This document shows, piece by piece, positions 22,734 through 34,123 of a stretch of 34,133 nt of DNA (positions are counted from its first letter, which is position 1; the number at the start of each line of letters is the position of its first letter). The DNA lies in the NCBI GenBank assembly GCA_024642665.1, contig JAHEAR010000003.1:30152-64284 (forward strand), given 5' to 3'. Position numbers and translations under genes: made by a program. Under the pieces are notes generated by a model that saw only the letters and a program-made list of their open reading frames with translations, had not been told where the DNA came from and searched no databases. Source of the stretch: Bacteroidota bacterium. GTDB lineage: Bacteria > Bacteroidota > Bacteroidia > Chitinophagales > Saprospiraceae.

Positions 22734-23741
22734 ATGGAAAATAAACGTGTGTTAGTCACAGGAGCCGCTGGATTTGTGGGTCGCTTTCTGCAATCAGAAG
22801 GAAAGCACAGAGGTAATGATGTCTATGGCAGCTATCGAAATGATGCAGAGAAGGCATTATTGGAAGATGGCACCAAAAGCTTCTTTTTAGAATTTTCGGA
22901 GAGAGAAACATTAAGTCAGCGATTAAAAGATTTTGCGGCAGAAACCGGAGGTTTTGAATATGTCATCCATTGCGCCGGAGTCACCAGGCCGGAACGCATC
23001 GAAGAGTTTTATGAAGGGAATGTGGAGTTCACCGATTTCTTTGTGCATGAACTACTGAGGACACAACCCAATTTCAAAAAGTTTATTTTCATCAGCAGTC
23101 TTCAGGCGATGGGCCCGGGTGACCCTAAGACGATGCAGCCCATCAATGAAAATTCGCCGGTCAAACCATTCACACCCTATGGGATCAGCAAATGGGAAGC
23201 AGAGAAAAGAATAACAGCAATACCGAATCTCGATTGGATTATTTTCAGACCCACTTCCATCTATGGTCCAAGAGATACAAAGTTTGTTCACACGATCGTC
23301 AATATCGTACAGAAAGGTTTTGCGGTACGGCTCGGGGCGAAAGATCAATTGGTCAGTTTTGTCAATGTCAAAGATATCTCGAGAGCACTGTGGGATGCCA
23401 TCGACAGAGATGTACACCGTGAGATCTATGTGGTCTCCGATGGAAATGACTACAGTCCTTCTTTAGTCAATGAGTACCTCGCAAAACATCTGGGCCTGAA
23501 ACCCATCAAAATTAAAGTCCCTCGTGGCTTGCTTTTAGGAATTTCCTATATCAGATTGTTTATTCATCGCCTGATGAAAAAGCCGTTGCACGTAAGCCCA
23601 TACAAAATCAAAGAAATCACGGCCAGAAACTGGCGCGTCGATAATTCCAAAATGGTACGCGAACTTGATTTCAAACCACAATTTACATTTGAGGAAGGAT
23701 TGAAGAATGCGCTGATGGAGGATGGGTTTATTAAGAGTTGA
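22734..23741 (+). CDS. NAD-dependent epimerase/dehydratase family protein (extended SDR)
   Basis: A 335-residue cytoplasmic Rossmann-fold oxidoreductase. The nucleotide-binding motif GAAGFVG (10-16) is followed by HCAGVTRPE (79-87), the active-site strand IFISSLQAMG with Ser121/Ser122, and the catalytic pair YGISK (Tyr149, Lys153). RPTSIYGPRD (about 171-180) is the usual substrate-domain turn of extended SDRs. The start MENKRVLVTG is chosen because the longer frame from 22692 precedes the promoter box. Reactions in this family include sugar-nucleotide epimerisation and ketone reduction. It converges on an alpha-oxoamine synthase gene across a bidirectional terminator, so a role as the 3-keto reductase of that pathway is possible (inference). 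Confidence 0.88.
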   Translation: MENKRVLVTGAAGFVGRFLQSEGKHRGNDVYGSYRNDAEKALLEDGTKSFFLEFSERETLSQRLKDFAAETGGFEYVIHCAGVTRPERIEEFYEGNVEFTDFFVHELLRTQPNFKKFIFISSLQAMGPGDPKTMQPINENSPVKPFTPYGISKWEAEKRITAIPNLDWIIFRPTSIYGPRDTKFVHTIVNIVQKGFAVRLGAKDQLVSFVNVKDISRALWDAIDRDVHREIYVVSDGNDYSPSLVNEYLAKHLGLKPIKIKVPRGLLLGISYIRLFIHRLMKKPLHVSPYKIKEITARNWRVDNSKMVRELDFKPQFTFEEGLKNALMEDGFIKS

Positions 23742-23760: not shown

Positions 23761-23794
23761 AAAAAAGCCCATGAAATCTCATGGGCTTTTTTTT
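23761..23794. terminator. Bidirectional intrinsic terminator
   Basis: A 14-bp perfect inverted repeat, AAAAAAGCCCATGA (23761-23774) with its complement at 23779-23792, encloses a four-base loop. An A-run lies on one side and a T-run on the other. It serves the converging SDR and alpha-oxoamine synthase genes on both strands. Confidence 0.93.
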
Positions 23795-23845: not shown

Positions 23846-25093
23846 TTATTGCATCACAGGATTTACTACTTCGTCTTTATAACTTCCTGTTTTCAACTTT
23901 TCAGCAACTGCTGAGAAAGCATCAAGCGTTTGCTTGACATCAGCATCCGTATGGGAAGCTGTAGGAATCATACGCAATAAGATCATTCCTTTTGGAATAA
24001 CAGGATAAATGATCATCGAGGTAAATATGCCGTAATTCTCACGCATATCCATCACCAATTGAGTCGCCTCAAATGGCGTGCCTCGAAGGTAAACCGGCGT
24101 AACAACAGTGTTCGTATCACCGATATCAAAACCACGTTCTTTGAGTCCATTTTGCAACGTAGTAGCGATATGCCACAGATGTGTTTGGTACTCCGGATGG
24201 TTGATCATCAATTCAAGACGCTTCAGGTTACCTTCAACGATCGGCATCGGTAAACTTTTTGCATGGATCTGAGAGCGCATGGCATACTGCAGATATTGGA
24301 TGATATCAGCATCACCGGCTAAAAATCCACCTGTACAGGCAAATGCTTTAGCAAAAGTGGAAAAGTAAATATCAATTGCATCCTGACAACCTTGCTCTAC
24401 GCCGGCTCCACGACCACCTTCCCCAAGTGTACCGTATCCATGGGCATCATCCACAAAGAATCTGAAGTTATACTTGCTCTTTAAGGCAGCGATTTCTTTC
24501 AGAATACCCTGATCACCACGCATCCCAAAGACACCTTCCGTCACGACGAGGATACCACCACCTTTTTCATCTGTCCATTTCTTGGCACGCAGAAGATTCT
24601 GCTCAAAACTCTCAATGTCATTGTGCTTGTATGAAAAACGCTCACCGATATGGAGGCGTGTTCCATCAATAATGCATCCGTGGCTTTCTGCATCATAAAC
24701 AACAGCATCTCTTCGGGTCAGCAACGCATCAATGGCACTGACAACTCCTGGGTAACCATAGTTTACAACTGCTGCCGCCTGCTTGTGCACATGGGCAGCA
24801 AGTTTTCTTTCCAGTTCCTTATGCAAAGAAGTCTCACCGGTCATCAATCGGGCTCCCATCGGATAGGCGAGTCCCCATTTGGCGGCAGCTTCTGCATCCG
24901 TTTTTCTGACCTCCGGATGATTGGCTAATCCAAGATAGTTGTTGATACTCCACACGACTACTTCCTTGCCATTAAACATCATGCGTGAATCTATCTCTCC
25001 TGATAATTCAGGAAACATATAGTATCCTTCGCCTAAATGGGCATACTGACCAAGCGGGCCACGCTGATGTCTTATTCTCTCAAATATTTCCAT
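23846..25093 (-). CDS. Alpha-oxoamine synthase, probable cysteate/serine acyl-CoA condensing enzyme
   Basis: A 415-residue PLP enzyme of the alpha-oxoamine synthase family (AONS, KBL, serine palmitoyltransferase), which condenses an amino acid with an acyl thioester with loss of CO2. Seen: WSINNYLGLANHPEV (48-62), His138 stacking over PLP (ESHG), DDAHGYGTLG with Asp216 and His218, and the PLP lysine Lys249 in FSTFAKAFACTGGF. It has the N-terminal block GPLGQYAHLGEGYYMFPEL seen in a Bacteroidota-specific branch. The start MEIFERIRHQ overlaps the upstream cysteine synthase-like gene by 14 bases; Met at 25120 is an alternative. The tight pairing with a beta-replacement PLP enzyme suggests cysteate as substrate, giving a sulfonolipid base (inference). 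Serine palmitoyltransferase or glycine C-acetyltransferase are alternatives. Confidence 0.85.
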   Translation of the reverse strand: MEIFERIRHQRGPLGQYAHLGEGYYMFPELSGEIDSRMMFNGKEVVVWSINNYLGLANHPEVRKTDAEAAAKWGLAYPMGARLMTGETSLHKELERKLAAHVHKQAAAVVNYGYPGVVSAIDALLTRRDAVVYDAESHGCIIDGTRLHIGERFSYKHNDIESFEQNLLRAKKWTDEKGGGILVVTEGVFGMRGDQGILKEIAALKSKYNFRFFVDDAHGYGTLGEGGRGAGVEQGCQDAIDIYFSTFAKAFACTGGFLAGDADIIQYLQYAMRSQIHAKSLPMPIVEGNLKRLELMINHPEYQTHLWHIATTLQNGLKERGFDIGDTNTVVTPVYLRGTPFEATQLVMDMRENYGIFTSMIIYPVIPKGMILLRMIPTASHTDADVKQTLDAFSAVAEKLKTGSYKDEVVNPVMQ

Positions 25094-26174
25094 AGTTTTT
25101 GATGTATTTATTAAAGACACGTTCTAATCTGCGCTGGATCTGATAGCTCGGCGCGTAATCCGCAATCTTGCGAATAAAGCCTTGCTTTTGCATCCAGCCA
25201 TTACTATAAATTTTACTTAAATATTTACTTCCATGGTCTGCAAATAACAGTACCACGATATCATTCGATTTAAATTCTCTGCGCATCCGCATCAATGCCT
25301 CCACACAAGCGCCACTACTATACCCAATGAAAATGCCTTCACTTTTCGTGAGTTGTCTTGCTCTGAACGCACTGCTTCGGTCATCCACTTTGATAAAGCG
25401 GTCGATTGTATCAAAATCAACATTGGATGGGATTATATTTTTTCCAACACCTTCCAATTGATAGGAGTGGATTTGACTTTTATCCAGAATTCCGGTCTGA
25501 TGAAATTTAGTGAGCACAGAACCTTCCGCATCCACCGCAATCACCTTGACATCCGGATTTTGTTCCTTCAGATATTTTCCCGCACCGGAGATTGTACCTC
25601 CCGTTCCACAAGTAGCCATGTAATGTGTAATTCTACCTGCGGTTTGTTTCCAGATTTCAGGTCCGGTGCTTTTATAATGCGCTTCGACATTCGCCGGATT
25701 GTAATACTGATTGACATAGAAGGAGTTTTCTATTTCTTTCGACAGTCTTTCAGCGACACTGTAGTAGGATTGCGGATCATCCGAAGGGACATGATTAGGG
25801 CAGACGATTACTTCTGCGCCTAATGCCTTCAATTGGGCTATTTTTTCTTCTGCACTTTTGTCTGTCGTGGTGAGGATACAGCGATACCCTTTGACGATAC
25901 AAGCCATCGCGACAGAGTATCCGGTATTTCCTGAAGTGGATTCAATGATGGTTCCTCCCGGTTTGATTTTACCATCCCGTTCCGCTGCTTCAATGACACC
26001 AAACCCAATTCGGTCTTTTGCACTTAATCCGGGGTTGAAGGATTCCAGTTTTCCGAGGACAAGACATCCGGTCAATTTCGACAAACCATGCAATTTGACC
26101 AAAGGCGTATTGCCTACGGTCTGCATGATATTATCGTGCCATTGAGGCTCCATTTGCTCAGATTCCTGCGTCAT
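25080..26174 (-). CDS. Cysteine synthase/CBS-like PLP enzyme, candidate cysteate synthase
   Basis: A 364-residue fold-type II PLP enzyme of the cysteine synthase/cystathionine beta-synthase family. Seen: VGNTPLVKL (20-28), PLP Lys53 in NPGLSAKDRIG, the substrate loop TSGNTG (80-85), phosphate-binding GTGGT (190-194) and GYSSGA (284-289). ADHGSKYLSKIYSNGW resembles the end of the CBS catalytic domain. There are no regulatory CBS domains; instead the protein has a basic C-terminal tail (about 331-364). Canonical cysteine synthases have GGSVKDR where this has GLSAKDR. The gene overlaps the downstream alpha-oxoamine synthase. An enzyme of this kind could make cysteate from O-phosphoserine and sulfite (inference); cysteine or cystathionine synthesis remains possible. 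Confidence 0.87.
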   Translation of the reverse strand: MTQESEQMEPQWHDNIMQTVGNTPLVKLHGLSKLTGCLVLGKLESFNPGLSAKDRIGFGVIEAAERDGKIKPGGTIIESTSGNTGYSVAMACIVKGYRCILTTTDKSAEEKIAQLKALGAEVIVCPNHVPSDDPQSYYSVAERLSKEIENSFYVNQYYNPANVEAHYKSTGPEIWKQTAGRITHYMATCGTGGTISGAGKYLKEQNPDVKVIAVDAEGSVLTKFHQTGILDKSQIHSYQLEGVGKNIIPSNVDFDTIDRFIKVDDRSSAFRARQLTKSEGIFIGYSSGACVEALMRMRREFKSNDIVVLLFADHGSKYLSKIYSNGWMQKQGFIRKIADYAPSYQIQRRLERVFNKYIKNYGNI

Positions 26175-26220: not shown

Positions 26221-26228
26221 CAAAGATA
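26221..26228 (-). promoter_or_regulatory. Candidate -7 promoter box TATCTTTG for the PLP enzyme operon
   Basis: On the minus strand TATCTTTG, identical to the rpsP box, lies 46 bases before the ATG at 26174. The predicted leader is about 40 bases. No TTTG at the -33 distance. Confidence 0.5.
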
Positions 26229-26510: not shown

Positions 26511-27002
26511 TTATCCTTTTGTAGGCTTGGCGGTGGTGGTTGATTTAGCTCCTGAAACGGAAGTAGAAGCACTTTTACCTGAGCAACAGCCTGCAGACTT
26601 ACTGCTGGTGCTTTTGCCTGCGCAGCATCCTGCGGCTTTCTGACCACTGCTGCATCCTTTGCCTGCTTCCATTTTCATAGGGGAGGCATTGACAAATGTA
26701 TTGGTTTCAGCATCATAGGTTACATCAACATAAGATACTTCACCTTTTGCTGTAGTTTCCTTTTTAGCATAGCTTACTTTCCCACTGACCGGGCAAGTTA
26801 TGGTTTCAATGGATTCATCCATAGAAGCCAATTTAGCAGCAGCTTCCACTGTGCTTACACCGGCGGTAGAAGTACTTTTGCCATCACATGACTTGCTTGA
26901 AGCTTGCTTCGCTGTGCAAGCCTTGCTGCAACCTGAATTTTGTGCCTGCGCGCCAACTACCATCAGCGAGAAGAACAACGTGGAAAAAAGGAATCTTTTC
27001 AT
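26511..27002 (-). CDS. Secreted Cys-rich protein of unknown function
   Basis: A 163-residue exported protein with a signal peptide (1-20, ending AQA). It has nine cysteines: 25, 29, 39, 70, 117, 126, 127, 139 and 140. The double-Cys motif AGCC-x-GKS occurs twice (124-130 and 137-143), separated by Ser/Lys-rich sequence. The middle (about 66-110) looks like a small folded unit starting TCPVSGKVSYAKKE with several beta strands. I recognise no family. The Cys pattern suggests metal (copper or zinc) binding or disulfide cross-linking in the envelope, but this is inference. It has its own promoter and terminator. Confidence 0.75.
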   Translation of the reverse strand: MKRFLFSTLFFSLMVVGAQAQNSGCSKACTAKQASSKSCDGKSTSTAGVSTVEAAAKLASMDESIETITCPVSGKVSYAKKETTAKGEVSYVDVTYDAETNTFVNASPMKMEAGKGCSSGQKAAGCCAGKSTSSKSAGCCSGKSASTSVSGAKSTTTAKPTKG

Positions 27003-31703: not shown

Positions 31704-31730
31704 ATTTGTCAGTGGAACATGTGTTTAGTC

Positions 31731-31754
31731 AAGAGCCCTGAAGGCCTCTTTGGT
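31731..31754 (+). terminator. Weak terminator-like hairpin after the GT9 gene
   Basis: AAGAGCC (31731-31737) can pair with GG-CTCTT (31743-31750, with a bulged C), followed by TTGGTTT. Short and imperfect. Confidence 0.3.
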
Positions 31755-31955
31755 TTATCACTAGTCGCCAAAGACGCTTGTTGTTTAGGGGGTTTAGCAA
31801 AACAATGGACAAGGATTTTTTTCGTGATTTGCTTTTTTCTGTGTTATCTCGTTAAACAGGAGAAGGAGACTATTCTTCGAACCCGATTTATAACTAATCA
31901 ATTCATGCTCCCGAAAGCCAAAGCAGAGGTGAATCTCAATATTGCGCCTGTCTCC

Positions 31956-32289
31956 TCAATCACCAAAACCTTTTCAATTGCCTGGGACAGAAAAAAACTA
32001 AACCCTCTAAACAACAAGCGCGTGCGGCGCTTAGTGCTCAACTTTCTCAACACTGAGCCATCCTACTCAATCTCTAAAACCTTTTCAATTGCCTGGGACA
32101 GAAAAAAACTAAACCCTCTAAACAACAAGCGCGTGCGGCGCTTAGTGCTCAACTTTCTCAACACTGAGCCATCCTTCTCAATCTCTAAAACCTTTTCAAT
32201 TGCCTGGGACATAAAAAAAACTAAACCCTCTAAACAACAAGCGCCTGCGGCGCTTAGTGCTAAACATTCTCAACACAGTGACCATAGCA
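31956..32289. repeat. 111-bp tandem repeat, three copies
   Basis: Copies at 31956-32066, 32067-32177 and 32178-32289. The first two are almost identical. The third is more diverged and has one extra A in its A-run, making it 112 bases. Each contains an inverted repeat AAGCGC/GCGCTT around a five-base loop (32016-32032, 32127-32143, 32239-32255); the loop is GTGCG in copies 1 and 2 and CTGCG in copy 3. Confidence 0.95.
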
Positions 32290-32392
32290 CAATCACCCCT
32301 GTACTACCTCCTACGTCGGACTACAGGGTCTGCCGCAGCACAACCACCTTATGCGGTGTGCACGGCAAGCGCTGCGCTCCGATCCTCACTTT

Positions 32393-34123
32393 TCACTTAA
32401 CCTTCCCGCCGACCATCGTCATCAATACTTTCGTCACCGGAATACTATCCTCCTGACAGGTCAGTAAATTGTTGGAAAGCATAACTAAATCTGCCCATTT
32501 ACCGGGCTCAAGACTGCCTTTGATATCGTCTTCAAAACCAGCATAAGCATTTCCTAATGTGTAGGAGTATATCGCCTCTTCTCTGGTCATAGCTTGTTCA
32601 TTAAAAAATACCATCCCATTGTCCAGTCGTTTTCTTGTGACAGAAGCATAGAAGTTTTGAAAGGGATCTATTCGTTCGACAGGTACATCGGTTCCATTAG
32701 CGATGATTACGCCCATGTCCAGTAAGCTTCTCCATGCATAAGCGCCAACTCTCGCTCGTTCCTCTCCAAGTCGTCTGACTACAAAAGGTGCATCAGAGGT
32801 GCAATGGATGCCTTGCATGGAAGCGATGACACCCATTTCTTTAAATCGTGGCATATCATCCGGATTTAAATGTTGTGCATGTTCTATGCGCCAACGTCGT
32901 TCATAACCATCCGTAAGTTGCGATAGCACGCCTTCAAAAATATCCAATACAACACGATTGGCCCGGTCACCAATTGCATGCACACATAATTGCATTCCCT
33001 GTGCTGCGGCCATGTCAGCAATACCTTTTATATCATAGATGGAAGTGGTGTTTTGTCCTGACTTGCCAGGCAGATCATTGTAAGGTGCAAGCAACCAGGC
33101 ACCGTATGAACCAAGTGCTCCATCCACTTCTGACTTTATCGCTCGGCAGGTAAACATGTCCGTACCGGAACGAATGATAGGAAATCCATCCAATCCTTTT
33201 TCTTTCAATTCCTCATAGGGATGTCTGAGCATTACCCACAAGCGCACATCCAAACTGTCATGGACGGCCAGATTATTGTATCGTTCGATTTCCTCATAAG
33301 ATGATCCGGCATCCTCGAAAGTTGTAATGCCATATTTCAGGCAATGTTTCTGGGCTTCGGCAATCGCATGGTACCATTCATCAAGCTTATCCTGTTCCGG
33401 CAGGGTGGATCTGTAATTTTGATAGGCTTCATTGATAGGTGCCATCGCGCGTTCTTCAAAAACCCCAATAGCATTTCCAGCATTATCTCGTACAATATGC
33501 CCACCGGGTGGATCCGGCGTTTCATTGGTGATATCGGCGGCCCGCATGGCCGCTTTATTGCCAAATAAAGCATGACCACTGGCATGGCTTAACAGCACGG
33601 GATTGTCAGGAGATATTTTGCTTAATGCATCATGAAAAGGGTATCCATTGACAGCGTTCAGAAGGGGAGTGGTCCATTTTTCCTGATGCCATCCACGGCC
33701 GATAATCCATTCCCCCGGCTTTGCTTTCTGCACTTTAGAAGCGACGCTATCCACAATTTCCTGCCAGCTTTTTGTATCCAGTAGATCTAATTGTATAAGG
33801 TTATAGCCCATGCTGCTGAAATGCCCATGGCCTTCAATAAAACCCGGCATAATAAACGCTCCGTCACAGTCCTTTTTATCCATCGCATGTTCGCCCCATT
33901 CAGTAAGAATTGCTTCTGAATCGCCTATGATGATGATTTTACCTTCTCGAATGACAATGGCGCCATTTTCGATCATTGGTTCGGATACCGGGTAAATGGC
34001 AGCATTATAAAGCACTAAGTCAGCAGCCTGTTCCGAGGTTGAAGTATTTGAATGACAGCCGAATAGCAGATAACTAATCGCAATTAGAAGTAATAGAAAG
34101 GGAAAAGTTCTTTTATTTTGCAT
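32393..34123 (-). CDS. Lipoprotein amidohydrolase (YtcJ-like, amidohydrolase family 3)
   Basis: A 576-residue metal-dependent hydrolase of the amidohydrolase superfamily. A signal sequence with lipobox LFGC (Cys23) predicts attachment to the envelope. The small beta-sandwich part (about 35-92) leads into the TIM-barrel metal site. His99 and His101 lie in FIEGHGH, Lys330 in CRAIKSEVDG, His382 in CVHAIGD, His415 in RIEHAQH and Asp479 in NGTDVPVE. Members of this YtcJ-like group are mostly uncharacterised and act on amide or imide bonds; the substrate is unknown. The ATG is 10 bases from the right end of the window, so the promoter is outside. The 3' end faces a long repeat region. Confidence 0.9.
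   Translation of the reverse strand: MQNKRTFPFLLLLIAISYLLFGCHSNTSTSEQAADLVLYNAAIYPVSEPMIENGAIVIREGKIIIIGDSEAILTEWGEHAMDKKDCDGAFIMPGFIEGHGHFSSMGYNLIQLDLLDTKSWQEIVDSVASKVQKAKPGEWIIGRGWHQEKWTTPLLNAVNGYPFHDALSKISPDNPVLLSHASGHALFGNKAAMRAADITNETPDPPGGHIVRDNAGNAIGVFEERAMAPINEAYQNYRSTLPEQDKLDEWYHAIAEAQKHCLKYGITTFEDAGSSYEEIERYNNLAVHDSLDVRLWVMLRHPYEELKEKGLDGFPIIRSGTDMFTCRAIKSEVDGALGSYGAWLLAPYNDLPGKSGQNTTSIYDIKGIADMAAAQGMQLCVHAIGDRANRVVLDIFEGVLSQLTDGYERRWRIEHAQHLNPDDMPRFKEMGVIASMQGIHCTSDAPFVVRRLGEERARVGAYAWRSLLDMGVIIANGTDVPVERIDPFQNFYASVTRKRLDNGMVFFNEQAMTREEAIYSYTLGNAYAGFEDDIKGSLEPGKWADLVMLSNNLLTCQEDSIPVTKVLMTMVGGKVK

Follow-up and report, generated by a model that had tools for sequence, protein, structure and literature searches.

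Sulfonolipids are sulphur analogues of sphingolipids. The enzymes of their synthesis and the order of the reactions have been published for Capnocytophaga and Chryseobacterium gleum, and the acyltransferase has also been described from Flavobacterium and Alistipes (PMC10191378, PMC11211663, PMC9304779, PMC12045153). In Capnocytophaga, CapA is reported to use phosphoserine and CapB acyl-ACP (PMC10191378). The acyltransferase SulA also takes acyl-ACP as its acyl donor, does not use serine or phosphoserine, and requires Lys281, which serine palmitoyltransferase (SPT) replaces by Ala (PMC9304779). The lipids themselves are reported to influence gliding, inflammation in mice and choanoflagellate development (PMC11211663).

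Here we describe a gene pair in a 34,133-nucleotide stretch of a Saprospiraceae genome (the window) that encodes the same two enzyme types as CapA and CapB. It differs from that system in that the window synthase scores below the NCBIfam CapA cut-off (478 vs 600 bits), and in that its two genes overlap by 14 bases, whereas ten Flavobacteriales pairs (L064, L074, L076, L080, L083, L084, L087, L090, L112 and L125) have spacings of -1 to +157. The window acyltransferase resembles SulA of Alistipes finegoldii (PDB 7u7h) in overall identity (58%) and in ten active-site residues, Lys281 among them. However, the cysteate synthase of Alistipes is reported to be of the archaeal type and not a CapA homologue (PMC10191378), whereas the window carries a CapA-type gene that overlaps the acyltransferase. 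The closest solved structure to the window acyltransferase, PDB 28eh/28fa, falls among Flavobacteriaceae-named rows in our tree, whereas the window falls among Saprospiraceae- and Lewinellaceae-named rows. Judging from sequence, we consider it highly probable (roughly 0.92) that the pair makes cysteate and joins it to a fatty acid, opening the sulfonolipid (capnine-type) route. The pathway is thus known, and what is new is the candidate pair in a Saprospiraceae genus. The available text of the four papers cited above holds no discussion that we found of adjacency between the synthase and acyltransferase genes, and a limited search of the available sulfonolipid literature mentioning the Saprospiraceae returned no report of sulfonolipids in this family.

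Layout of the gene pair

Table 1. Features at and around the candidate cysteate synthase and acyltransferase genes (window coordinates).
Feature	Position	Strand	Description
CapA-type cysteate synthase candidate	25080..26174	-	364 aa, ATG start; fold-type II PLP enzyme, PLP Lys53; without CBS domains; EGVGKN loop (Lys245)
Cysteate fatty-acyl transferase candidate (CapB/SulA/CFAT type)	23846..25093	-	415 aa; PLP Lys249; diagnostic Lys279 (= SulA Lys281)
14-base overlap ATGGAAATATTTGA	25080..25093	-	acyltransferase start over synthase stop; kept in L030/L059 and L060
Terminator-like hairpin, 14 pairs	23761..23792	-	3' of the pair, between the acyltransferase and the convergent SDR gene
Promoter-like element TATCTTTG	26221..26228	-	47 bases before the synthase ATG; read from the sequence
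Convergent SDR, Epimerase family (extended)	22737-23738	+	assigned by Pfam
Small, apparently secreted protein	26511-27002	-	upstream of the pair; Cys/Ser-rich, signal-like start, no Pfam match

The initial annotation described a fold-type II enzyme overlapping an alpha-oxoamine synthase by 14 bases, and this overlap is exact when the acyltransferase is read from the ATG at 25093 (Table 1). An alternative GTG start at 25120 would give an open reading frame at 23846-25120 of 424 aa and an overlap of 41 bases; with the ATG start, alignment to the two closest solved chains begins at residue 2. Both PLP lysines named in that annotation were recovered, Lys53 of the synthase within NPGLSAKDR and Lys249 of the acyltransferase within FSTFAKAF. 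The sequence and Pfam likewise agree with its statement that the synthase has no CBS domains, as Pfam finds PALP alone in this protein (residues 17-311) and Aminotran_1_2 alone in the acyltransferase. The annotation had also singled out GLSAKDR in place of GGSVKDR. This motif is present, but Leu for the second Gly is not diagnostic by itself, because CBS-type rows from the phylum read GHSIKDR or GNSVKDR.

We infer that the two genes are co-transcribed. The upstream element TATCTTTG fits TAnnTTTG, which we take to be the Bacteroidota -7 element. The downstream hairpin belongs to a set of terminator-like sites that is statistically weak as a whole, with 6 sites in the scan compared to 4.4 +/- 1.7 in shuffles.

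Family placement of the two enzymes

The acyltransferase finds its best solved chain in PDB 28eh, deposited as 'Cysteate-C-fatty acyltransferase' (580 bits and 62% identity with 405 residues aligned), followed by SulA at 530 bits, while SPT (3a2b) reaches 217 bits at 33% identity and KBL (1fc4) 180 bits. It falls below the cut-offs of both the KBL model TIGR01822 (231 bits, cut-off 493) and the SPT (CFB type) model NF047600 (271 bits, cut-off 640). A tree of each protein had been proposed in the initial annotation as a check, and in our quick tree of 127 rows the second protein sits with CFAT and away from KBL and SPT: the window, 28eh, SulA and 117 CFAT-type rows are separated from 7 SPT/KBL-type rows with an SH-aLRT of 100, in a tree for which the tool warned of long branches meeting at the outgroup. 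All ten SulA active-site residues that we examined are kept in the window, namely Asn53, Gly115, Tyr116, His140, Asp217, His220, Thr248, Lys251, Lys281 and Arg376 in SulA numbering. Lys281, which is Lys279 in the window, is also Lys in each of the 118 other CFAT rows; seven of the remaining 8 rows have Ala, Asn or Thr in this column, and the eighth (L186) lies on the CFAT side. The alpha-oxoamine synthase residues, the Lys at position 281 and the grouping with characterised members together mark the protein as a candidate CFAT. Within this family, the window lineage departs from the consensus at a few conserved columns; for instance, Pro115 (SulA 117), next to the PLP site, occupies a column that is Gln in 113 of 116 rows.

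These comparisons bear directly on a possible sphingolipid start, in which the second enzyme would be an SPT and the first would supply an unrelated amino acid. By score SPT ranks next, and the window has GGF after the PLP lysine as SPT does, a feature common to 14 of the 118 other CFAT rows (GAF occurs in 103). The presence of Lys279 instead of the SPT Ala, the much higher scores to the CFAT and SulA chains, and the position in the tree nevertheless make this reading very improbable.

Assigning the synthase is more demanding given that profile scores hardly separate it from CBS. Its 478 bits on the CapA model NF053679 are nearly equalled by the 471 bits of the genome's own CBS (G000:C30:66042-67016), and it scores 380 bits on the CBS model TIGR01137. 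Pairwise, it is 53% identical to the genome's own CBS (384 bits) and 54% identical to PDB 9k2p (382 bits). We therefore did not accept the NCBIfam score by itself as evidence of CapA identity, and the case rests instead on the tree, a loop residue and genetic linkage. In a maximum-likelihood tree of 97 rows, the window, PDB 9k2p, 36 CFAT-adjacent rows and 4 fused rows form one side (bootstrap/SH-aLRT 99/100), and the opposite side of the branch holds 18 CBS-type rows, one of which is the CBS of this genome. The CBS-type rows were assigned by length, and Pfam found a CBS domain in all six of the 18 that were checked, the genome's own included. Forcing the window, L059 and L060 to the CBS side costs 85.6 log units and is rejected by the AU test (p-AU 0.0013, a value that takes no account of this group having been chosen after the quick tree was seen). 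The tree check proposed for the first protein thus places it outside the CBS/CysK side as well. For the synthase trees, the tool flagged long branches that meet among the outgroup rows, and the nearest rows beyond L059 and L060 lie at a path length of about 1.4. The quick tree left out L005, L009, L010, L029 and L030 (the window or same-genus copies), identical duplicates, L169 (whose alignment starts ahead of the start codon), L103 (partial) and L049 (a fragment). PDB 9k2p falls on the CapA side, yet its depositors do not name it a cysteate synthase.

The clade that holds the window synthase includes genes that exceed the NF053679 cut-off, such as L167 and L175, which come from G067 and G126, and further CFAT-adjacent genes also miss this cut-off (G133 with 548, G051 with 546 and G075 with 508 bits). 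Since its score lies below 600 bits, we file the window protein with the wider CapA clade and not with the NCBI equivalog as cut. Its fold-type II PLP domain without CBS domains and its separation from CBS/CysK in the tree are those of a CapA-type enzyme, and it has neither the tree placement, nor the EGxGED loop, nor the C-terminal CBS domain of a CBS. One residue of this loop distinguishes the two sides. Position 245 is Lys in the window (EGVGKN) and in all 39 of the other CapA-side rows that lie outside the window lineage. CBS rows carry Glu here in 18 of 20 cases, and the two PDB CBS chains carry Tyr. From its basic character, Lys245 may help to bind sulfite or phosphate. EGxGK versus EGxGE is accordingly a one-residue marker that divides CapA-side from CBS enzymes in the rows examined, and it separates two enzymes of this genome that are nearly tied on NCBIfam score.

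Linkage, fusion and distribution in relatives

To place the pair in its wider genetic context, relatives of the acyltransferase were confirmed in genome contigs (336 in all), and linkage was read in the best 80 of these, a sample that is consequently biased towards the window's kin. In 30 of the 80 loci the acyltransferase gene is preceded, in the same orientation, by a synthase gene. The spacing is -14 to +301 bases in 24 of them and 1.1-1.3 kb in 2, and in the remaining 4 the genes are fused into a single frame. Among the other 50 loci, five (L062, L069, L073, L094 and L106) leave too little upstream contig, roughly 1 kb at most, for a verdict on the synthase gene. An all-against-all comparison of open reading frames from 89 loci, including some duplicates, likewise gave a separate synthase gene as the commonest partner of the acyltransferase (30 loci). 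We also considered a common third neighbour and set this idea aside, as the next clusters among the top 28 listed span 5 to 12 loci and mostly stay within a single genus or family, with a few shared between two.

Among the loci examined for spacing, an overlap of 14 bases is restricted to the window, its own genus (G001 and L059, at 91% and 94% identity) and L060 (74%). Its conservation in these loci indicates that the overlap is not a chance frame. By nearest named record, L059 is a 'Bacteroidia bacterium' MAG (94% identity in the acyltransferase) and L060 a 'Lewinellaceae bacterium' MAG (74%); G001 and L059 are probably one organism.

The fusions are the freshest part of the finding. In L070, L071 and L091 both enzymes are encoded in one uninterrupted frame, and L103, although its 5' end is cut, is fused across the junction. 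Pfam finds both PALP and Aminotran_1_2 in the single L071 protein. When this protein was compared to 248 genomes of the window's family, 157 matched, and among the matches listed those unbroken across the junction occur in at least four genomes under one genus code (G010, G326, G401 and G450). With G401 and G450 counted together with L070 and L103, this gives six fusion assemblies, of which L070, L071, L091 and G326 are complete and L103 and G010 are cut by contig ends. The corresponding entries are L070, L071, L091, L103, L148/L219 (G010) and L248 (G326), with a length of about 785 aa where complete. The carriers are Saprospiraceae MAGs and further genomes of the same family. In an alignment, four of the fused proteins share 75-90% identity with L071; their enzyme parts are conserved, and the linker, about 40 residues long, varies but keeps the frame. 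Fused rows form a single clade both in the synthase quick tree (L070, L071, L091 and G010, support 100) and in the acyltransferase tree (L070, L071, L091 and L103, support 98), so that one fusion event suffices for these. Oddly long frames in G075, G309, G311, G339, G353, G387 and G440 were considered as further fusions, and each proved to be two separate genes. A limited search of the available sulfonolipid and cysteate literature returned no description of a cysteate synthase fused to an acyltransferase, and the primary papers may say more.

Across the phylum, we sampled 198 genomes with a minimum completeness of 95. CFAT was found at E<=1e-120 in 74 of these, and CapA above its cut-off in 19, all of which are among the 74; a CapA-side enzyme could be assigned by adjacency or tree in five further CFAT genomes (G000, G007, G051, G075 and G133), bringing the assignable total to 24 of 74. 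The other 50 CFAT genomes, judged mostly by open-frame length and some by tree, gave CBS-type hits only or none at E<=1e-110, and thus no recognisable CapA-side enzyme. As the sampled genomes are related, these counts are not independent events. The cut-off of the archaeal-type cysteate synthase model TIGR03844 was exceeded in 2 of the 198 genomes, neither of which has CFAT at E<=1e-120 (G220:C2:421492-422670 with 410 bits and G123:C11:218424-219593 with 405 bits).

Cysteate has other uses in general, and the first enzyme could conceivably feed a soluble sulfonate pool from which the acyltransferase draws only part. The overlap, the single-frame fusions and the finding that CapA above its cut-off never occurs without CFAT in the 198 genomes all argue against such a pool, which we regard as highly unlikely.

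Proposed pathway and its genomic setting

In the reading that we favour, a capnine-type route, the two genes would make up a small operon covering the first two committed steps of sulfonolipid synthesis. The upstream enzyme would replace the leaving group of an activated serine with sulfite to yield L-cysteate, and the downstream enzyme would condense cysteate with a fatty acyl thioester, with loss of CO2, to give 3-ketocapnine; the lipid itself is the predicted end point. Sulfite would come from CysD/CysN and CysH. The genes for CysD, CysN (a stretch of 258 residues) and CysH were found in the genome, away from the pair, indicating that sulfite can be made. The archaeal-type cysteate synthase TIGR03844 was not found in this genome, where the best hit reaches 34 bits (cut-off 325). 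The initial annotation had proposed that the first enzyme makes the amino acid that the second condenses, and this coupling of cysteate to 3-ketocapnine gains support from the recurring adjacency, the fusions and the Lys at position 281. The coupling, offered there as a conjecture, corresponds to reactions that had already been published (PMC9304779, PMC10191378, PMC11211663).

The same survey of the genome bears on whether the pair has a housekeeping role. The genome's CBS is located elsewhere and carries a CBS domain (Pfam), its KBL lies on another contig (C19) and scores 627 bits on TIGR01822 (cut-off 493), and beyond this KBL and the acyltransferase itself no further acyltransferase match was found at E<=1e-30. 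A cysteine or cystathionine synthase paired with a KBL of threonine/glycine metabolism or a BioF is therefore the least probable reading of all, even though both proteins belong to the same superfamilies as those enzymes and the synthase is nearly equal to the genome's own CBS on NF053679 and pairwise as close to CBS as to 9k2p, since the trees exclude both proteins from the CBS/CysK and KBL groups and the genome has a separate CBS and KBL.

The later steps of the capnine-type route, reduction and N-acylation, would be carried out by genes elsewhere. In Chryseobacterium gleum and Alistipes finegoldii, the verified reductases are reported not to be clustered with cfat (PMC11211663). No capnine-specific reductase appeared among the matches listed for 10 of the genome's 11 PF00106 hits (E<=1e-20, L208 left out; for one protein, the best 25 of 90 rows). 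The convergent SDR was set aside as a 3-ketocapnine reductase, as it is of the Epimerase family, runs in the opposite direction and lies beyond the terminator-like hairpin. Among the 80 loci it occurs only in L059 and L060, and also in G001 of the same genus; its identity in L060 is 43%, against 74% for the acyltransferase. Two other neighbouring frames are recorded here for completeness. Relatives of the small, apparently secreted protein lie near the pair at varying distances in L059, L060, L068, L150 and L151, and the open reading frame at 31719-32453 (+), which has a nearly three-fold internal repeat (SISKTFSIAWDRKKLNPLNNKRVRRLVLNFLNTEPS) and no Pfam match, is possibly not a real protein.

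It is tempting to speculate that cysteate passes straight from synthase to acyltransferase in these Saprospiraceae, through translational coupling and a complex where the genes overlap and within a fused, bifunctional '3-ketocapnine synthase' (about 785 aa) in a related genus, though we hold this tentatively and consider the odds to be somewhat against it. The fused proteins would allow the two-step reaction to be tested from one gene. Taken with the gene pair, the finding extends a genetically traceable sulfonolipid route to the Saprospiraceae.
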